Positions 379 through 36,407 of a stretch of DNA of 36,831 nucleotides are shown here, one piece after another. Numbering within the stretch: the stretch's first letter is position 1; each line of letters starts with the position of its first letter. The stretch spans positions 1 to 36,831 of the forward strand of contig JAFXVN010000019.1 in the NCBI GenBank assembly GCA_017524545.1, read 5' to 3'. The translations under genes and the position numbers were made by a program. This DNA comes from Bacteroidaceae bacterium. Lineage in GTDB: Bacteria > Bacteroidota > Bacteroidia > Bacteroidales > Bacteroidaceae. The notes under the pieces were generated by a model that saw nothing but the letters and a program-made list of their open reading frames with translations, was not told the DNA's origin and made no database searches.

Positions 379-1287
379 TCACTTGACGAGTATCTTCTTG
401 CCGTCCTTGATGTAAAGTCCTTTGGGCAGTTTGCCATTTGTGATTTGGCGGCCGCTGAGGTCGAAACATTTACCATTTAACCATTTACCATTTACCAATT
501 GACGGTTTGTGGTTTCGTGGATGGCTGTCGCTTGTTGGCCGTCGTCCGTTGCCTCTTGCCCGAGGTATTCTGCCCAGACGGTTTCGCGGAAGACATCGAC
601 GCGGATGTGGTAGTAGCCTTCTTTGGTGACGCTCCATTTGTTGTCGCCGCTGCCGCCCGTGAGCAGCTGGGTGCTCCCCAGGATGTCTTCGTCTTGCGTG
701 AAGGGATGCAGCACCTTGGGCTCCCAGGCGTTCTGCCCCTCGAACTTGAAGCGGCGCGGCTCGCCGAACTCCTGACGCTCTCGCAGCTCGCCCGTCCAGT
801 CCCATGTGCAGACCTCGCTTTCGTCTCTGGTGAAAGGCAGGAAGGTGTATGTCACCCAGCCGCATTCCGTGGCTCCGCCCACGATGAAGAGCTCGTTCCA
901 CGGACGGAACAGCTCGCCCGTTAGCGTCTTGGCGTTGAGGTCGATGGTGATGCGGTAGATGTCTTCGGTCAGAGGCACCGTCCAGAGACATGCCGAAGAG
1001 TCGCGGGCAGAAACAAGCGTGAAGGGTGTGGCGTTTGTGACGGCGTATGCGTCCTCGTAGGTGGGTTTGAGATAGCGCACGAGACTTGCTGTCGCTGCCT
1101 CCTTGTTGCGGAAGGATAGCGTGCCGCCCTCGATGAGACGGCCTGTGTATTTGTACTGCTTGTTGGGGAAGGGCGTCAGCTCCTGAATGCCGCCAGGTAC
1201 GGCAGTGCCTACTGCCCAGTAGCGGTCTTGGGCAAAAAAGTGAAAAGTGAAAAGTGAAAAATAAAAAATGAGCAAGAGGCGTTTCAT
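379..1287 (-). CDS. SusE/SusF-like secreted carbohydrate-binding protein
   Basis: Encodes 302 residues. Residues 1-19 form a signal peptide (MKRLLLIFYF, then a Phe-rich core ending FFAQ). The body shows two beta-rich stretches; the second (LFIVGGATECGWV, later FKFEGQNAW and YYHIRVDVF) resembles the domain pattern of SusE/SusF outer-membrane starch-binding proteins. The tail, LSGR then KGLYIKDGKKILVK, is the short C-terminal signature often seen on secreted Prevotella proteins. The start codon overlaps the stop of the upstream GH31 gene as ATGA (1284-1287), so translation is probably coupled. The signal peptide is partly encoded by three perfect GTGAAAA heptamers (1240-1260, plus-strand reading), and residues near the C-terminus by ACCATTT heptamers (465-500). 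Binding target is unknown; an alpha-glycan fits the GH31 neighbour. Confidence 0.7.
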   Translation of the reverse strand: MKRLLLIFYFSLFTFHFFAQDRYWAVGTAVPGGIQELTPFPNKQYKYTGRLIEGGTLSFRNKEAATASLVRYLKPTYEDAYAVTNATPFTLVSARDSSACLWTVPLTEDIYRITIDLNAKTLTGELFRPWNELFIVGGATECGWVTYTFLPFTRDESEVCTWDWTGELRERQEFGEPRRFKFEGQNAWEPKVLHPFTQDEDILGSTQLLTGGSGDNKWSVTKEGYYHIRVDVFRETVWAEYLGQEATDDGQQATAIHETTNRQLVNGKWLNGKCFDLSGRQITNGKLPKGLYIKDGKKILVK

Positions 1288-3710
1288 GGCTTGACAGGAT
1301 TAAGGGTTTTCTTTCCGTTCTGAATACGCACGCCCGTTGTGGAGCGAAAAGCCTTGCGGCCACTTAGGTCATATACTGCCTTTTCCCCCTCTCTTTTGGA
1401 GAGGGTTGGGGTGAGGCTGTCCTCTTCTTCTTCCACATTAATGATGGTGGCTTCGGAGCAGGGACGGGCGGGGACATCGACAAAGAGGCGGCAGAGCTGC
1501 TCGTCGTAGGTCCAGCCGTTTGTCTCTTCTCCATTGATGCTGACATGGCTCGGCTTGTCCACCAAGAAGAACACGACTTGCCAGGCTCGCTCGTTCGGCA
1601 TCCCCTCGTAGCTGCCTTCGCGGGGGCTGATGGTGAGCGTGGTGCCGCCGGTGGCATGAGTCTGCGTGAAAAGCGTCGTGGCATACTCGCCATCCTTGTA
1701 CGCCTCGCTGTCGCCGTGGTCTTCGTAGAGCGTGCCTTTGCCGTCGGCACCGGGAATGACCCAAAGCACGAGCGACGACGGCTCGCTCTTCAGATGCGAG
1801 ACGGGAGGGTTGCAGGGAATGATGCTGCCAAGGCGGATGAAGTAGGGAATTTCGGAGAGGCCGTACTGGTCGGTGACGGTTCGGTTCCCTCGGAGCATAC
1901 GGTTGCGGCATACGTCGTACCAGTGGCCTTCGGGGAGCCATGTCTTGCGCTCGCTGGTGCCGTCGCTGCTTGTGGGGGTTGAGACGGGCGACACCAGGAT
2001 GTCGTTGCCAAAGAGGTATTCGTCCTCGACCGTGTAGGCTTTGTTCTGCTCCGGCCACTCGTAATAGAGCGGGCGGCAGATGGAGACCCCCGTGTCGTAT
2101 GCCTGTCGCGCCGCAGTATAGATATAAGGTACGAGCGTGTAGCGAAGCTGGAAGGCCTCGCGCTGGAGGTCGAAGTTCGAGAACTTCCAGATGCGGCGCT
2201 CGCATCCGCTTTGGCTGGAGCCGTGGGTGCGGAAGATGGGTTGGAAGACGCAGAACTGCATCCATCGCAGCACAAGCTCGGGGTCGGTGGCGATGTTGTT
2301 GGGTTGCAGATAGCCGCCGCCGTCGTGTCCCCAATAGCCGAAGCAGACATTGGCGGCTGTGGCGGTGAAGTAGCTCTCGAACTGCAATGTGCCGAAGGTC
2401 GCGAAGGTGTCGCCGGAGAAGCCGATAGGGTAGCGGTGGCTGCCCATTCCGCCCCAGCGGTGGAAGATGACGGGGCGGCGGTCGGTGCGGTTCAGCCGCA
2501 TGTCGTTGTAGAAGACATGGTTGAGCCAGAAGGTCTGCCCGAGGCCGGCAACATATTGGCTTGTGAGGTCTTGCTGCCAGTCGAGCCACCAGAAATCGAC
2601 GCCCTGCTTCTCGCGAACGCGCATGAGGTTTTTGAAGAAGGTGCGGTAGAAGGTGGAGTCTTCGAGCTGCCAGGGCACGGTGGTGGCGCTTGCGTCAAGC
2701 CCCATGTCGCTGCGAATCTTGGAGAAGTTGTCGTCGCTCTGCCCAATGCCGTCGGCGGGATGGAGGTTGAGGGCGGTCTTCGTGTTGTGGGTGTGCATCC
2801 AGTTCAGGAGCGATGTCGGGTTGGGGAAGAGCGACTTGTTCCACGTCCATCCCGTCCACGAGTTCTGGTGCCAGTCGCAGTCTATCATCAGCACATCGTG
2901 CGGCACGTCCCTGTTCTCCATGTCGCGCACCAGCTGCTGGAGTTCGCTCTGGGAATAAGCCTGATACTTGCTGTACCAATAGCCGAACATGTATTTCGGC
3001 GGAAGAGGCTGGCGGCCTGCTATGCGGACATAGTCGCCAAGCGCGTCCTTGTACTGATGCCCATAGCCGAAGAAATACCAGTCGATGGCATTGGCATCTA
3101 TGGGAGTGCCGAGCCAGGGGATGCCATCTACCTCGCCTTCAAAGGGGAAGGAGCGGCTTCCGTCGCCGCGCAGAGTGCTTGGCGATTCGTCGAGGACAGC
3201 CCATCCGTCGCGCGATAGCAGGCCTTTCTCGAGGGAGACACGATGGGTGTCGCCAATGTTGCCGTCGAGGGTGCGCTGCGTGCCAAGCAGGTTGAGGGCA
3301 TCGTCCTTCCCCGGGTACCAGAGAATCTGCCGTCCGTTCATCTGGAAGGTGATGCCCAGCACGGTGCTGTTCTTGTGCTGCCTGTTGATTTTGGAGCCGA
3401 CCTTGTAGCGCAAGGTGAGCGAGTCGGTGCGGATGACGAGGTAGCCGTCTTCTGTCGTGCAGGTGAAAGCAGGCACAGGCAGTCGGCGGTTGACGACGGC
3501 AAACGTGGCCCTGTCCTCGAAGAGCTTGTTGGTGCTGTACTGTATGCGGATAAGCCTGGGGGTCAGGATGGTGAAGCGTGCGCTTCCGCTCGTCACGACG
3601 GCTTCCTCCTGCGCCACAGGATTCCATTCCTCCCTCGCGCTGGCAGGTAGGGCAAAAAAGAGGAATAGGGAATAGAGAATTGGGATTAGCAAAAGCTGCG
3701 GACTTTTCAT
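1284..3710 (-). CDS. Glycoside hydrolase family 31 enzyme (alpha-glycosidase), secreted
   Basis: Encodes 808 residues with an N-terminal signal peptide (LLLIPILYSLFLFFALPASA). An N-terminal beta domain is followed by a TIM barrel from about residue 230 (PPKYMFGYWYSKYQAYS). The catalytic nucleophile is probably Asp377 in WWLDWQQ, and the acid/base Asp434 in the HRYPIGFSGD segment, both where GH31 enzymes carry them. Beta domains follow, with a C-terminal tail (VYDLSGRK, NGKK). GH31 enzymes remove alpha-linked sugars; the WWLDWQQ context and the DCDWHQNSWTGWTWN motif differ from classic alpha-glucosidases, so glucosidase, xylosidase, galactosidase or N-acetylgalactosaminidase activity cannot be decided here. 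A palindromic repeat (1378-1417) is translated into residues just before the tail. The gene lies 53 bp after the DUF1573 gene and is coupled to the SusE/F-like gene. Confidence 0.88.
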   Translation of the reverse strand: MKSPQLLLIPILYSLFLFFALPASAREEWNPVAQEEAVVTSGSARFTILTPRLIRIQYSTNKLFEDRATFAVVNRRLPVPAFTCTTEDGYLVIRTDSLTLRYKVGSKINRQHKNSTVLGITFQMNGRQILWYPGKDDALNLLGTQRTLDGNIGDTHRVSLEKGLLSRDGWAVLDESPSTLRGDGSRSFPFEGEVDGIPWLGTPIDANAIDWYFFGYGHQYKDALGDYVRIAGRQPLPPKYMFGYWYSKYQAYSQSELQQLVRDMENRDVPHDVLMIDCDWHQNSWTGWTWNKSLFPNPTSLLNWMHTHNTKTALNLHPADGIGQSDDNFSKIRSDMGLDASATTVPWQLEDSTFYRTFFKNLMRVREKQGVDFWWLDWQQDLTSQYVAGLGQTFWLNHVFYNDMRLNRTDRRPVIFHRWGGMGSHRYPIGFSGDTFATFGTLQFESYFTATAANVCFGYWGHDGGGYLQPNNIATDPELVLRWMQFCVFQPIFRTHGSSQSGCERRIWKFSNFDLQREAFQLRYTLVPYIYTAARQAYDTGVSICRPLYYEWPEQNKAYTVEDEYLFGNDILVSPVSTPTSSDGTSERKTWLPEGHWYDVCRNRMLRGNRTVTDQYGLSEIPYFIRLGSIIPCNPPVSHLKSEPSSLVLWVIPGADGKGTLYEDHGDSEAYKDGEYATTLFTQTHATGGTTLTISPREGSYEGMPNERAWQVVFFLVDKPSHVSINGEETNGWTYDEQLCRLFVDVPARPCSEATIINVEEEEDSLTPTLSKREGEKAVYDLSGRKAFRSTTGVRIQNGKKTLNPVKP
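1378..1417. repeat. GC-rich palindromic element, translated within GH31
   Basis: A 40-bp element runs from GCC to GAGGC with a perfect inner stem CCCTCTC/GAGAGGG around a TTTTG loop (1387-1405). Read on the minus strand it is in frame and gives the peptide SLTPTLSKREGE near the C-terminus of the GH31 protein. It matches the simple single-hairpin form of the elements at 6488, 11212 and 24665. Confidence 0.75.
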
Positions 3711-3758
3711 CTCGTTACAAACAATTCCTAATCCCTATTCCCTAATCTCTAATCTCTA
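3662..3758. repeat. Inverted pair of 7-bp tandem repeat arrays at the GH31 start
   Basis: The left array has four 7-bp units (GGAATAG, GGAATAG, AGAATTG, GGATTAG; 3662-3689). The right array has five units of the reverse-complement type (ATTCCTA, ATCCCTA, TTCCCTA, ATCTCTA, ATCTCTA; 3724-3758). The left array lies inside the GH31 signal-peptide codons, the right one between GH31 and the DUF1573 stop. The spacer holds the GH31 start codon, so the arms can fold into a hairpin enclosing it. Confidence 0.75.
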
Positions 3759-3763
3759 ATCAA

Positions 3764-4232: not shown

Positions 4233-4240
4233 CAAAGGTA
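4233..4240 (-). promoter_or_regulatory. -7 promoter box for the DUF1573 gene
   Basis: On the minus strand this reads TACCTTTG, a perfect match to the Bacteroidota -7 consensus TAnnTTTG, about 28 bp before the start codon. No convincing -33 TTG was found at the usual spacing. Confidence 0.6.
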
Positions 4241-4248
4241 CGAAATAA

Positions 4249-4409
4249 TTCACAATTCATAATTCATAATTCATAATTCTTTGCGCATTCATGTCTTTTT
4301 TGACATTTATTCATATTTAATAATCCTTAATCCTTAATTTCTTTGTACTTTTGCACTCGACAAGGACCGATTCATTATGAATTGTGAATTAAGAATTATG
4401 AATTTATAA
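4249..4409. repeat. Inverted 7-bp arrays flanking the ruvC promoter region
   Basis: The left array is TTCACAA followed by three TTCATAA units (4249-4276). The right array is TTATGAA, TTGTGAA, TTAAGAA, TTATGAA, TTTATAA (4375-4409), ending 6 bp before the ruvC start. A minor pair of AATCCTT units lies at 4322-4335. The roughly 98-bp spacer carries the ruvC -7 box, so the right array would sit in the ruvC 5' leader. Confidence 0.75.
4346..4353 (+). promoter_or_regulatory. -7 promoter box for ruvC
   Basis: TACTTTTG matches TAnnTTTG and lies about 60 bp before the GTG start of ruvC, predicting a leader of roughly 55 nt that contains the right-hand heptamer array. No clear -33 TTG is present at about 20 bp. 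Confidence 0.5.
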
Positions 4410-9407: not shown

Positions 9408-9533
9408 AGGCACGTTGTATAATTATTTTCAAGGTTTGATAATATATTTTCAAACCGTGAAAATATATTTCCAAAGCTTGATAATATATTTTCAAGCCTT
9501 GAAAATAGTTTGTAGGCTCGCTGCGCAGACTTT
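9408..9533. repeat. 126-bp palindromic-array element, copy 1
   Basis: After AGGCACGTT come four tandem units of about 21 bp, each an imperfect palindrome around TTTTCAAGCCTTGAAAA, followed by a conserved tail of about 26 bp containing GCTCGCTGCGCAGACTTT. An equal-length copy with the same ends lies at 32877-33002; flanking sequence is unrelated. Here it sits between convergent genes. The internal CTGCGCAG is a perfect 8-bp palindrome. The 64 bp from 9534 to the priA stop show nothing else. Confidence 0.85.
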
Positions 9534-11623: not shown

Positions 11624-11631
11624 CAAAGGTA
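11624..11631 (-). promoter_or_regulatory. -7 promoter box for priA
   Basis: Minus-strand TACCTTTG, a perfect consensus match, ends 8 bp before the priA ATG (11615-11613). Initiation at the usual distance would leave only a few nucleotides of 5' leader. Confidence 0.6.
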
Positions 11632-11641
11632 CGAAAAAGAA

Positions 11642-11837
11642 TGAAGAATAAAGAATGAAGAATGAAGAATTATTTCGGAGATGCAATAAAAGCATCAGAC
11701 GGGGGTGCCTACACATTATTATATATGTAGGGGGAAGGCTACGGGACATTGGCTTTGTCGGCATTGCACAGGGAGCATGATTTGTGCACAAAAAAAGTTA
11801 AAATGTGCATAATTGGGCATGTTTTTGTCCTCAGAAG
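11642..11837. other. priA-acpP intergenic region, upstream part
   Basis: No gene is seen. It begins with four AAGAAT-type heptamers (AAGAATA, AAGAATG, AAGAATG, AAGAATT; about 11642-11670). A short inverted repeat, CCTACA with TGTAGG, lies near 11708-11731. The rest up to the acpP promoter shows nothing recognisable. Confidence 0.4.
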
Positions 11838-12197: not shown

Positions 12198-12205
12198 GAT
12201 AATAA

Positions 12206-12295
12206 TTCACAGTTCATAGTTCATAGTGCATAGTTGGGCTTACGTTTTATGGTAAGCGAGACAATAACTATGAATTATGAACTATGAACTATGAA
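12206..12295. repeat. Inverted 4+4 heptamer element between acpP and fabF
   Basis: Left array: TTCACAG, TTCATAG, TTCATAG, TGCATAG (12206-12233). Core of 34 bp with a small stem GCTTAC/GTAAGC. Right array: CTATGAA, TTATGAA, CTATGAA, CTATGAA (12268-12295). The arms are reverse complements, so the whole element can fold as one long hairpin. Elements of the same layout with a 35-bp core lie at 28354-28444 and 34959-35080. Confidence 0.85.
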
Positions 12296-12305
12296 CTAAG
12301 TTTAC

Positions 12306-27721: not shown

Positions 27722-28358
27722 TTGGTGTGGTTATCTTGATGTTTTCCCTGTTGCCTTCGACCATCGTAATCTCTCTGCCCATTGCTTCCACAACGGAGGC
27801 ATCGTCGGTGAATGCTTCGGAGTAAGGCTGCCGATAGGCTTCTTTCAGCAGGGCAAGCGGGAATGTCTGTGGTGTCTGCACCAATCGGTATTCGTCGCGG
27901 GGGCGCGTCACGCTGCTGCCGTCGGGGAGTATTTGCCGAACCGTCTCAACGACTGGCACGACTGGCACGACCGCCTTTCCCTCGCTTGCCGTTGCATAGC
28001 ATCGCCGTATGGTTTCGGCAGAGACAAAAGGACGCACGCCATCGTGAATGCCGACAACCGCCTCTGCATCGTCGGGAAGAAGATTCAAACCGTTCCTGAC
28101 GCTGTGGAAGCGTGTCTCTCCGCCATTGGCAATCCGTTCTGGCGAGCGGAAGTTGTACTCCTTGCAAAGCTTCTGCCAATAGTCATGCTGTGCGGCAGGC
28201 AGGACAAGCACAATCTCTATGACTTCCATCGCCCTTCGGAAAGCCTCAATCGTATGCATCAGGATAGGCTTCCCGCTGATGGGCAGGAACTGCTTCGGTA
28301 TGTCTCCGCCCATGCGAAGTCCTTTGCCGCCAGCCACGATAATAATATATGAGTTCAT
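27699..28358 (-). CDS. ispD: 2-C-methyl-D-erythritol 4-phosphate cytidylyltransferase
   Basis: Encodes 219 residues. It couples CTP to methylerythritol phosphate in the non-mevalonate isoprenoid pathway. The nucleotide-binding loop [21 protein letters not shown] is at the N-terminus; [29 protein letters not shown] and [12 protein letters not shown] are conserved IspD segments. The ATG lies inside a heptamer repeat unit (TTCATAG as read on the plus strand, 28354-28360), so the repeat supplies the start codon. recG overlaps its 3' end. Confidence 0.95.
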
Positions 28359-28444
28359 AGTTCATAGTTATGAGTTCATAGTTAATTCTTTTGCTCAGTT
28401 GCAGGGCTTTGCCCAACTATGAACTATGAATTATGCACTATGAA
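28354..28444. repeat. Inverted 4+4 heptamer element between DJ-1-like gene and ispD
   Basis: Left array: TTCATAG, TTCATAG, TTATGAG, TTCATAG (28354-28381). Core of 35 bp with a GGGC/GCCC stem. Right array: CTATGAA, CTATGAA, TTATGCA, CTATGAA (28417-28444). The element provides the ispD start codon at one end and the stop plus last residues of the DJ-1-like protein at the other. Confidence 0.85.
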
Positions 28445-28991
28445 CTAACTCTTTGTATATCATCCCCTGGCGCAGAGGCATTGATGCTCCTTCGCCCAGG
28501 AAGAAATCGACGATGGTATAGCCGAACTCAAAAGCGGCAGCGGGGCCTTTGCCTGTGATGATGTTGCCATCCTGTTCTACGATTGCGGCTGTATAGCTGG
28601 CACCTTTCAGCTCGCCTTCGACACCGGGATAGCAGGTGGCGCGGCGACCTTGAAGCAAACCAAGATGACCGAACACCAGTGGTGCAGCGCAGATGGCAGC
28701 AATGGCGCCACCTGTCTCGAAGTGGCGCTTGATGGCTTCTGTCAAAGGTTTGCAGGCATCCAGATTGGTAGAGCCTGGCAGACCTCCGGGCAGCACGAGC
28801 ATCTCTGCCTGCGAGAAGTCAACTTCGGGCAGCAGCATGTCGGCTGTGATGCCAACGCCATGAGCACTTGTCACAACATTCTCTCCGGTAATGGAAACGG
28901 TCTGCACCTGCAGGCCTGCACGTCGCATGATATCGACCGGTGCAATGGCTTCGATATCCTCGAAACCTGTAGCTAAAAAGACGTAAATCAT
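28431..28991 (-). CDS. DJ-1/PfpI family protein
   Basis: Encodes 186 residues of the DJ-1/ThiJ/PfpI fold, small cytosolic proteins linked to protein or nucleotide deglycation and stress response. The nucleophilic Cys101 lies in AAICAAPLVFG, with Glu14 near it in GFEDIEAIAPVD, as in DJ-1. The last four residues (VHSA) and the stop codon are encoded by the heptamer repeat at 28354-28444, so the natural C-terminus may once have been different. Promoter -7 box at 29055-29062 on the minus strand; the leader contains five AATTAAG-type heptamers (29003-29037). Confidence 0.9.
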   Translation of the reverse strand: MIYVFLATGFEDIEAIAPVDIMRRAGLQVQTVSITGENVVTSAHGVGITADMLLPEVDFSQAEMLVLPGGLPGSTNLDACKPLTEAIKRHFETGGAIAAICAAPLVFGHLGLLQGRRATCYPGVEGELKGASYTAAIVEQDGNIITGKGPAAAFEFGYTIVDFFLGEGASMPLRQGMIYKELVHSA

Positions 28992-29002: not shown

Positions 29003-29037
29003 AATTAAGAGTTAAGAATTAAGAGTTAAGAATTAAG
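29003..29037. repeat. Five heptamers in the DJ-1 leader
   Basis: AATTAAG, AGTTAAG, AATTAAG, AGTTAAG, AATTAAG run without interruption over 35 bp between the DJ-1-like start codon and its promoter. No inverted partner array is present nearby. Confidence 0.8.
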
Positions 29038-29051
29038 ATTTGACTTTTGTT

Positions 29052-32876: not shown

Positions 32877-33002
32877 AGGCACGTTACATAATTATTTTCA
32901 AGCCTTGAAAATATATTATCAAGCTTTGAAAATATATTATCACGCCTTGAAAATATATTTCCAAGCCTTGAAAATAGTTTGTAAGCTCGCTGCGCAGACT
33001 TT
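32877..33002. repeat. 126-bp palindromic-array element, copy 2
   Basis: Same length and ends as the copy at 9408-9533: AGGCACGTT, four palindromic units of about 21 bp around TTTTCAAGCCTTGAAAA, then the tail GCTCGCTGCGCAGACTTT. It lies between the barrel gene terminator and lepA. The 137 bp after it, up to the lepA -7 box, show nothing recognisable. Confidence 0.85.
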
Positions 33003-34953: not shown

Positions 34954-34958
34954 GTTAA

Positions 34959-35080
34959 TTCATAGTTCATGGTTCATTGTTATGAGTCCATAATTAGGCT
35001 ACGCCATGCCAACTAAGCGAACAAACAACTATGAACTATGAACTGAAAACAACTATGAATTATGAACTATGAACTATGAA
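34959..35080. repeat. Inverted heptamer element between lepA and the Crp/Fnr gene
   Basis: Left array: TTCATAG, TTCATGG, TTCATTG, TTATGAG, TCCATAA (34959-34993). Core of 35 bp with GGC/GCC stem and CTAAGCGAACAA, similar to the core at 12234-12267. Right side: CTATGAA twice, CTGAAAA, then CTATGAA, TTATGAA, CTATGAA, CTATGAA (35029-35080). The final unit contains the ATG of the next gene. Confidence 0.85.
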
Positions 35081-35669
35081 CTGTAAAGACATTGCACGGG
35101 AAATATCCCGTATCTATTGCCCCATGACTCCTTCAGGCATCGAGGCCCTGAGCAGTATCCTCGTACCCATGAAGTTCCAGAAGGGTGACACCATCTTGGA
35201 GGAAGGTAAAGTGTGCCGTGCCCTCTATTTCGTAGAGAAAGGCATGGTCCGGCAGTACTATTACAAGAACAATAAGGATGTCACCGAACATTTCTCTTTC
35301 GAAGGCAGAATAGTCTTCTGCATAGAAAGCTTCCTCAAGCAGGAACCCAGCCGGCTCATCGTCGAAGCGCTGGAGAATACCACGCTCTATGCCATCCCCT
35401 ACGATGGCTTGCAGGAGCTCTGTGTGCGCGAGAGGGAGATAGAAATCCTCTGCCTCAAGATACTGGAACATGTGGCCATCAGCAGCCAGCAACATGCCGA
35501 CAGCCAGCGCTTCGAGAATGCTGCGGAACGCTACGACCGCCTGCTCCGCGAGAAACCGGAAATCATCCTGCGAGCCCCGATGGTACATATCGCCAGCTTC
35601 CTGCAGATGACCCCCGAGACGCTCAGCCGTGTCCGAGCTGCAGCCTTATCCCATCCAACCGAGAAATAA
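35076..35669 (+). CDS. Crp/Fnr family transcriptional regulator
   Basis: Encodes 197 residues. The N-terminal cyclic-nucleotide-binding-type domain (FQKGDTILEEGKVCRALYFV, then EKGMVRQYYYKNNKDVTEHF) precedes a dimerisation helix and a C-terminal helix-turn-helix (HIASFLQMTPETLSRVRA). No Fnr-type cysteine cluster is seen at the N-terminus, and the effector is unknown. Its start codon lies inside the last unit of a heptamer array. No own promoter was found, so it may be read from lepA through the inverted element; hpt follows 9 bp after its stop. Confidence 0.88.
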   Translation: MNCKDIAREISRIYCPMTPSGIEALSSILVPMKFQKGDTILEEGKVCRALYFVEKGMVRQYYYKNNKDVTEHFSFEGRIVFCIESFLKQEPSRLIVEALENTTLYAIPYDGLQELCVREREIEILCLKILEHVAISSQQHADSQRFENAAERYDRLLREKPEIILRAPMVHIASFLQMTPETLSRVRAAALSHPTEK

Positions 35670-35678
35670 ATCCATACT

Positions 35679-36224
35679 ATGCACGAGCAGAAAATCATTC
35701 AGGTAAAAGACAAGACCTTTGCCGTCTCCATCCCCGAGTCAGAACTGAAGCAGCAGATAAAGCGTGTGGCTGACCAGATAAGCAGCGACTATGCAGGCCA
35801 GGAGCCTGTCTTCCTCGCCGTCCTCAACGGTTCCTTCGTCTTCGCCGCCGACTTGCTTCGCGAGATTGACCTGCCATGCGAGATTTCCTTCGTCAAGCTT
35901 GCTTCCTATCAAGGCACAAGCACGACGGGCACCATCCGGGAAGTGATTGGACTCAACTTTGACATCACCGGTCGTCCGGTCATCATCATCGAGGACATCG
36001 TTGATACAGGTCTGACGATGGCCCACATGCTCGATACGCTGAAAGGCCACAACCCGGCAAGCATCGACATCTGTACCCTCCTGCTCAAACCCACCAAGCT
36101 GCAGGTCAAGCTCGATGTACGCTATTGCTGCAAGCAGATTCCCGATGACTTCGTGGTAGGCTTCGGCCTCGACTACGACGGCTTCGGCAGGAACACAAAA
36201 GATATTTATACGATTATTCGCTGA
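35679..36224 (+). CDS. hpt: Hypoxanthine phosphoribosyltransferase
   Basis: Encodes 181 residues. It salvages hypoxanthine (and guanine) to IMP or GMP using PRPP. The PRPP-binding motif IIIEDIVDTGLTM is at about residue 102-114; the flexible loop region SYQGTSTTG and the base-binding VVGFGLDYD are in place. The gene order hpt-adk fits joint purine metabolism. A pair of inverted 13-bp arrays follows directly and separates it from adk. Confidence 0.95.
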   Translation: MHEQKIIQVKDKTFAVSIPESELKQQIKRVADQISSDYAGQEPVFLAVLNGSFVFAADLLREIDLPCEISFVKLASYQGTSTTGTIREVIGLNFDITGRPVIIIEDIVDTGLTMAHMLDTLKGHNPASIDICTLLLKPTKLQVKLDVRYCCKQIPDDFVVGFGLDYDGFGRNTKDIYTIIR

Positions 36225-36376
36225 AGTTATGAAGAGGAGTTAAGATAAGGAGTTATGAAGAGGAGTTATGAAGGGCCAAATGTTTTGGCTGCTTGATTCT
36301 CTTATCGAATAGTAGTAATGGCTCATTATAACTCCTTATTATAACTCCCTATTATAACTTCTAATTATAACTCCTG
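36225..36376. repeat. Inverted 4+4 array of 13-bp units between hpt and adk
   Basis: Left: four 13-bp units of AGTTATGAAGAGG type (36225-36276), beginning at the last base of hpt. Right: four 13-bp units of ATTATAACTCCTT type (36325-36376). The 48-bp core contains a small stem of GCCAAA with TTTTGGC at its left edge. Same layout as the heptamer elements with a longer unit. Confidence 0.8.
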
Positions 36377-36407
36377 AAATAATTCAAAATCAGTAAATAC
36401 AAAAAGA

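Follow-up and report, generated by a model that had tools for sequence, protein, structure and literature searches.

Tandem arrays of many different heptamers at candidate promoters and as inverted pairs between genes of a Bacteroidaceae genome

The gap between acpP and fabF in a Bacteroidaceae genome is filled by an inverted pair of tandem 7-bp arrays with AACTATG as unit (12202..12298, forward strand; arms 12202-12235 and 12266-12298; arrays by Tandem Repeats Finder, genes by Pfam). It raises the question of what such arrays are, how they came to lie there, and whether their layout or their sequence is kept. The pair lies in a window of 36,831 nt, by which we mean the whole stretch of DNA analyzed. 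The genome is a 3.6-Mb draft of 85 contigs, and the FabF of the window is up to 95% identical to that of Bacteroidaceae and Prevotellaceae assemblies, several of them ruminant-derived. To our knowledge, reports of heptamer repeats in bacteria go back decades, and their role is little understood; heptanucleotide repeats termed STRRs were reportedly described by Mazel in 1990. An earlier note on this DNA had seen in the window a recurring element, in which about four units, a core and about four inverted units stand at gene boundaries, and had suggested that the layout is what is maintained. Apart from two tRNAs, Rfam at gathering thresholds returned no hit in the window.

The answer that we favor has two layers, and as a whole we consider it about evenly balanced between right and wrong. 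In the first layer, the lineage would repeatedly make tandem repeats of 7 bp, with slippage during replication in steps of 7 nt as their most likely source, and the arrays would be held mostly at 3-5 units (~21-38 bp) by selection or structure. They would be kept at sites where a short AT-rich stretch of low information content does no harm or is of use, as in the −33/spacer region of a promoter, in the 10-20 nt ahead of a start codon, in signal peptides and C-terminal linkers, and in the arms of hairpins. In promoters, the −33 TTG would be replaced by an array whose phase relative to the −7 box is fixed. In the second layer, the paired elements would be small dispersed inverted-repeat DNA elements, REP/MITE-like and gained at gene junctions, whose arms turn over through the first layer; the hairpin shape would stay, as would the core GGCTACGCC in some of the copies.

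The dominance of a single period is the broadest evidence for the first layer. At a threshold of at least four copies and 85%, a sample of 430,600 bases (the window and 20 stretches of the same genome) contained 76 arrays of period 7 and 0-3 of any other period between 4 and 12, and five local shuffles of the sample averaged 0.0 arrays of period 7. A laxer threshold yielded 123 arrays in 38 unit classes, versus 0-2 per shuffle. With three copies, period 21 gave 13 arrays, a signal that stems partly from a separate 21-bp family, and period 14 gave 5. Across the genome, (TTCATAG)x3 with up to two mismatches matched 169 times, and its letter-reversed control did not match at all. The arrays named in the earlier note were recovered at their positions by Tandem Repeats Finder and in the sequences themselves.

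A larger set of 61 sources of the same genome (1,179,274 bases) held 357 arrays in 61 unit classes; it was partly picked around TTCATAG sites (stretches L131-L170), so the TTCATAG family is over-weighted in it, and stretches L031-L050 are contig runs picked for containing such sites. Arrays of 3, 4, 5, 6 and 7 units numbered 125, 129, 129, 19 and 7, with one each of 8 and 12. Both the diversity of units and the narrow size range speak for the two-layer reading, although such a size cap is unusual for free slippage and counts against it. The GC content of the units averages 26%, and the commonest units are AACTATG, AATTATG, AAATCGT and AAAAGTG. Stop codons in all frames, as a reason for the 7-bp step, find a small excess: 97% of units contain a stop codon versus 89% of shuffled units. 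The pattern extends to relatives, where the earlier note had proposed to look. The TTCATAG version occurs in 20 of 201 genomes of the family, eight of which (our own included) have at least 25 matches and twelve one or two, and heptamer arrays are present at orthologous sites. Array density is lowest in G012, with 0 in 60,000 bases, and highest in G020, at 33 per 100 kb from only 15 kb of sequence; our own sample has 28.6 per 100 kb. In 1.37 Mb around fabF from 80 relatives, period 7 accounts for 64 arrays, period 8 for 19, and each of the other periods from 5 to 12 for at most 8, N-run artefacts included.

Many unpaired arrays stand directly beside a candidate promoter. Unpaired arrays gave 538 strand views, in 51 of which a TAnnTTTG box begins within 12 bases of the array end, mostly 3-5 bases from it, compared with 2.6% of random intergenic positions that have a box at that distance. 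Conversely, an array covers the upstream region of 49 of 180 candidate promoters. Among these sequence-based candidates, TTG is found in the −33 region of 1 of the 49 array promoters versus 56% of the 131 others, where the array set was selected on the −7 box and the non-array set may include false boxes; as background, TTG occurs in 22% of windows drawn at random from intergenic DNA and in 11% of those taken within arrays. Across 13 heptamer classes, the T-rich part of the unit stands in one phase to the −7 box (n = 35, R 0.67), also when each class contributes one value (R 0.54, p 0.02). Arrays thus abut the −7 box, without TTG and in one phase over 13 classes, which argues for the two-layer reading. 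They would appear to stand in for the −33 TTG element at these promoters, whose activity we infer.

Three such arrays lie in the window. The DUF1573 gene has an AATTATG array at 4245-4279 with a −7 box at 4233-4240 (4233..4279, reverse strand). On the other side, a short TAATCCT array (4321-4338) with a −7 box at 4346-4353 lies upstream of ruvC (4321..4353, forward strand), and the predicted 5′ leader of the same gene contains an AATTATG array (4374..4404, forward strand). What the earlier note had taken for an inverted-pair element at 4249 is instead a promoter array and a 5′-leader array (4249/4374) flanking a divergent promoter region. The third belongs to priA (assigned by Pfam), with AAGAATG at 11637-11674 (11637-11670 in Tandem Repeats Finder) and a −7 box at 11624-11631 (11624..11674, reverse strand). 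In relatives, the promoter left of ruvC carries arrays in 5 of the 12 closest loci (AATTATG three times, AACTATG and AATCTCT) and the priA promoter in 4 of the 11 closest (AAGAATG once, AAAATTG three times), these 11 and 12 loci having been chosen by eye as comparable from 30 each, and the left-hand neighbor of ruvC in relatives being presumed to correspond. The remaining loci at both promoters have no array, and several have TTTTG instead. At both promoters, corresponding to the arrays at 4249 and 11642, different species therefore carry different heptamers at the same place, a further point in favor of the two-layer reading.

Arrays also occur just before start codons and inside genes. Of 55 arrays of the AAATNGT type, 50 are in sense orientation to the closest gene downstream and 44 lie within 25 nt of its start, which again supports the two-layer reading. 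In the window, an AATTAAG/AGTTAAG array occupies the 5′ leader of a DJ-1/PfpI-like gene, 12 nt upstream of its start (29003..29038, reverse strand). Sixty-six arrays lie inside called genes, 23 of them at most 45 residues from the C-terminus, 9 at most 30 residues from the N-terminus and 34 elsewhere, and some may be gene-caller errors. Genes were called with a codon-bias caller that placed some starts wrongly (for example in G005, with an acpP-fabF gap of 194 nt, and in G012, with a lepA gap of 174 nt). One called gene of the window contains two arrays, both of which the earlier note (at 465 and 1240) had grouped with the elements at gene boundaries: an AAAAGTG array encoding the signal-peptide-like stretch LIFYFSLFTFHFF (1233..1271, reverse strand; Tandem Repeats Finder 1236-1271) and an AAATGGT array ~31 residues from the C-terminus (467..503, reverse strand; Tandem Repeats Finder 467-497). 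Where a heptamer array is read through in frame, the protein gains a seven-residue repeat, for instance FSLFTFH in N-termini that resemble signal peptides and VNGKWLNGK close to C-termini. These coding arrays may mark signal-peptide and C-terminal sorting-domain regions.

Paired arrays are a separate class. Of 90 neighboring array pairs, 44 pass our hairpin cut; among those 44, the loop measures 21-39 bp in 31, and 30 stand between tandem genes. The cut-offs and shuffles used here are not identical to those of the convergent-gap survey and the masked-arm clustering described below. Pairs often start near a stop codon and finish near the next start codon. Besides the acpP-fabF pair, two AACTATG-armed pairs are found in the window. 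The one between the DJ-1/PfpI-like gene and ispD (28352..28447, reverse strand; arms 28352-28383 and 28415-28447) encloses the degenerate core GGGCAAAGCCC and provides the stop codon of the former gene and the start region of the latter. The other, between lepA and a gene for a cNMP-binding (Crp-like) protein (34956..35088, forward strand; arrays 34959-34981 and 35027-35082 by Tandem Repeats Finder), has the core GGCTACGCC and a second right-hand array, and provides the start region of the crp-like gene. As RNA, the acpP-fabF pair folds at z −9.5 and the other two at −7.4 and −6.1. A fourth pair, with GGAATAG and AATCCCT as units, lies between the DUF1573 gene and a glycosyl hydrolase family 31 gene (3662..3761, reverse strand; arms 3662-3689 and 3723-3761; z −4.2). 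None of the acpP-fabF, PfpI-ispD and lepA-crp gaps was found to contain a −7 box, so transcription of the downstream gene probably passes through the hairpin.

The core is conserved in part of the copies. The motif GGCTACGCC has 16 extragenic occurrences in the sample, 15 of which adjoin an array, and it is present in 11 of 36 tandem 7-bp hairpins, oriented along transcription in 10 of the 11 (p 0.012). Among the AACTATG pairs of the window, only the one at 34959 has it exactly; those at 12206 and 28354 are degenerate. Related motifs occur with other arms, namely AACATTG/AATGGTC and a 9-bp unit. A narrower core pattern matched four sites in the genome, and the core was therefore assessed by GGCTACGCC. 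With the arrays masked, most AACTATG-type hairpins remained unclustered at E<1e-3 (two clusters, of 4 and 2 members, and many singletons), so that a common origin rests mainly on this 9-bp motif in 11 of 36 hairpins. The association of GGCTACGCC with arrays favors the two-layer reading, and the failure of most masked hairpins to cluster weighs against it.

Two further readings of the pairs were rejected. Intrinsic termination does not fit, because a T-run (at least 6 T in 8 nt) follows the stem in only 3 of 36 tandem 7-bp hairpins. Hairpins of any kind are present in 32 of 35 convergent gaps and 7-bp arrays in 3 of 35. Mirror copying between arms was likewise dismissed, as the own partner of an arm matched it no better than other partners within its subfamily (p 0.83, 0.82 and 0.81). 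Across 27 mixed elements, the C/T subtype was concordant between both arms (p 0.0003).

In comparisons between species, congeners mostly lack the elements of the window at the same junctions or carry another hairpin there. At the junction of the PfpI-like gene and ispD, 7 of 8 comparisons lack the element, the two genes overlapping by 4 bases (five comparisons) or being separated by 5 or 15 bases; the eighth (G319) has a different hairpin. The lepA-crp pair is present in 0 of 5 comparisons, with array-like remnants in G232 and G265, and the element with 13-bp units described below in 0 of 4. Among 30 loci each of lepA and ispD in relatives, a few have other arrays. Downstream of lepA, one congener (L214) carries a very long TTCATAG/TCCATAG array of more than 20 units in 190 bases. 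At acpP-fabF, four of eight congener comparisons have hairpins made of other units and four have none. Absence of window elements at tight orthologous junctions speaks for the two-layer reading, and inverted arms together with absences at three junctions provide the inverted ends and the filled and empty sites expected of a MITE. The idea that the layout is maintained while the unit changes is supported at some sites (acpP-fabF and the two promoters), but in part of the copies a sequence, GGCTACGCC, is kept as well.

A mobilizer was looked for among Y1 transposases only, and a parent transposon was not found. The Y1_Tnp search of the genome gave four hits, three above the cut-off, with only weak three-copy matches and no paired heptamer arrays in their flanks; an origin from a REP/RAYT system was rejected on these grounds. 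In one of these regions (L261), the flanks of the RAYT-like gene repeat the palindromic GCACTAAAGTGCG and then GAACGGGAC, which are REP-like and unrelated in sequence to the heptamer arrays. No target-site duplication was seen by eye in the compared junction gaps. That neither a mobilizer nor a target duplication was found counts against the two-layer reading, in which copying at the DNA level would spread the pairs.

Other repeat families share the window. A hairpin between a phosphoribosyltransferase gene and an adenylate kinase gene (36213..36383, forward strand) has arms of 13-bp units (36225-36273 and 36325-36375) and is one of 9 clustered in the sample; it belongs to a different dispersed family and is not, as the earlier note had it, a 13-bp version of the heptamer element. 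Arrays of 21-bp palindromic units (TTTTCAAGGCTTGAAAATA type) lie at 9419-9507 and 32893-32976, the former between convergent genes and in one cluster with three comparable hairpins from other convergent gaps of the genome. A third family, of 9-bp hairpins (ACGGATTNN), has 30 clustered members in 1.18 Mb, many of them between convergent genes (L133, L151, L160 and others), and its arms covary (20 elements, 82.5% versus 54.6%, 0 of 5,000 permutations as high). The single element type into which the arrays had been grouped thus dissolves, the arrays being present, into dispersed pairs, promoter arrays, leader arrays, in-gene arrays and the 13-bp family.

The acpP-fabF junction bears on an explanation that we consider rather unlikely for the pairs, namely that they are selected RNA hairpins: a stem-loop in the mRNA between co-transcribed genes would tune both, for example as a 3′-end stabilizer or attenuator after acpP, and any sequence that folds would serve. 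From 111 loci, two without acpP within 700 bases were dropped; the remaining 109 include duplicates between collections and our own locus twice, and gaps are called distinct here after removal of identical ones only. Of the 109 gaps, 41 are shorter than 50 nt, 63 measure 50-250 nt and 5 are longer. Among 56 distinct gaps of 50-250 nt, 49 pass the hairpin cut and 55 fold at z ≤ −3, with unrelated sequences: the arms consist of AACTATG, AATTATG, GGATTAA, GAAGAGT, 8-bp units, an 11-bp unit or no repeat. The 8-bp-unit hairpins (GAGTTGAC type) occur at L070, L072, L073, L080, L082, L085, L086 and L104. A long acpP-fabF gap is nearly always a hairpin, and its sequence is of little account. Stem mismatches at this junction are 73 G·U versus 46 A·C (p 0.017, with related species not independent), which, like the orientation of GGCTACGCC along transcription, tells against the two-layer reading and for a role of the RNA; the covarying arms of the separate 9-bp family and the probable read-through in three window gaps point the same way. 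The gaps under 50 nt, however, have no strong fold (those folded reach −3.4 kcal/mol at best, with no such hairpin), T-runs are rare, and our own genome has no excess of G·U over A·C: on the transcribed strand, the 36 tandem 7-bp hairpins have 28 G·U versus 48 A·C (p 0.03, opposite to what RNA selection would give), a first hairpin set has 25 versus 28, and all tandem hairpins pooled have 91 versus 107. Together with arms that are unmatched within a subfamily, this gives no support, in this genome, to the earlier suggestion that RNA hairpins may be what is maintained, and the lack of a G·U excess and the scarcity of T-runs in 7-bp pairs favor the two-layer reading. In our view, the 7-bp pairs mainly reflect events at the level of DNA; an RNA function at some junctions is possible.

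It is also conceivable, though unlikely, that every pair arose where it stands, by slippage and template switching into a palindrome and with no mobile element involved. The 61 unit classes, the many singletons after masking and the existence of hairpins with 7-, 8-, 11- and 13-bp units would all be expected of such an origin, and one array promoter (L301) offers a possible seed, AAGTTCATGGTTC; yet many loci share GGCTACGCC or belong to the 9-bp or 13-bp hairpin family, and partners within a subfamily are not mirror copies of each other. Chance, AT-rich composition or an assembly artefact we regard as vanishingly improbable. Such doubts could arise from a draft genome in 85 contigs and from named relatives that are mostly metagenome assemblies, but the shuffles (0-2 arrays) and the reversed control (0 versus 169) refute them, and the pattern recurs in independent assemblies, including the complete-genome record of Prevotella communis E15-14 (L107), where a hairpin of this kind lies at acpP-fabF.

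The two-layer reading leads to a wider proposal that we put forward tentatively, as possible rather than probable. Genome-wide making of 7-bp repeats would supply interchangeable modules, mostly of 3-5 units, that replace functional DNA by their shape and not by their sequence: phase-locked arrays of about a dozen heptamers would serve as the upstream half of promoters instead of the −33 element, and the same arrays as arms of junction hairpins. If this is true, promoters would tolerate slippage, since the units of an array are alike and the gain or loss of one leaves the sequence beside the −7 box unchanged. Many unrelated heptamers in the same kinds of position within one genome, and orthologous sites that differ in heptamer between species, make two questions testable, namely why the step is 7 bp and how Bacteroidetes promoters work with a weak −33 element. 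They also carry a warning that long intergenic hairpins in these bacteria can be recent gains and not conserved RNA.

Several known systems share features with these arrays. Long simple sequence repeats (Mrazek 2007, as cited in PMC4679880 and PMC4692102) and STRRs also show an excess of 7-nt units, comparable to the 76 versus 0-3 found here, and polymerase slippage has been proposed for them; unlike for the arrays here, layout, phase and unit exchange are not described in those passages. In the passages of MacGregor 2015 (PMC4679880), TAACTGA repeats of marine Beggiatoaceae, some Cyanobacteria and five Bacteroidetes lie just upstream of start codons, as do the AAATNGT arrays, but they involve a single heptamer, one inverted repeat in its genome and no promoter arrays. 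The absence of a Bacteroidales precedent, as supposed in the earlier note, is not contradicted for inverted pairs, none having been found in the open-licence literature searched, but is qualified by the TAACTGA heptamers of five Bacteroidetes. In the parts of that literature covered, there was no account of many interchangeable heptamers, of a phase lock to promoters or of unit exchange at orthologous sites.

REP/RAYT systems (excerpts of PMC3733652) likewise consist of dispersed extragenic palindromes; theirs are short and GTAG/CGTC-tagged, whereas the pairs here have no link to the RAYT-like genes of the genome. The BrickBuilt MITE of Porphyromonas gingivalis, also of the Bacteroidales, is described in the sections of PMC4596501 consulted as an intergenic inverted-repeat element of tandem units with promoter elements, but its 23-nt units lie between a leader and a tail end, unlike the pairs here with a core enclosed by 7-bp arms. 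The Bacteroidetes sigma-ABfr promoter combines a −7 TAnnTTTG with a −33 TTTG (per the excerpt of PMC7366714), and the −33 motif is much less evident in F. johnsoniae (per that of PMC6847099); the −7 box here is the same, and the array promoters differ in lacking the −33 TTG in all but 1 of 49. The closest parallel is found in Xanthomonas, from which paired inverted heptamer arrays as such are already known. According to the passages of Rehm et al. 2015 (PMC4692102), its dispersed GGGAATC arrays are mostly intergenic, the majority have four units, and 70 (Xcc) and 75 (Xac) inverted pairs are able to form stem-loops. As there, two inverted arrays of the same class lie close together here and can form a stem-loop. 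The Xanthomonas arrays represent one G-rich family whose unit can form G-quadruplexes, a property that does not extend to the AT-rich units here, of which a single genome has 61 classes; the phase lock to promoters and the different units at orthologous sites further set the present arrays apart.
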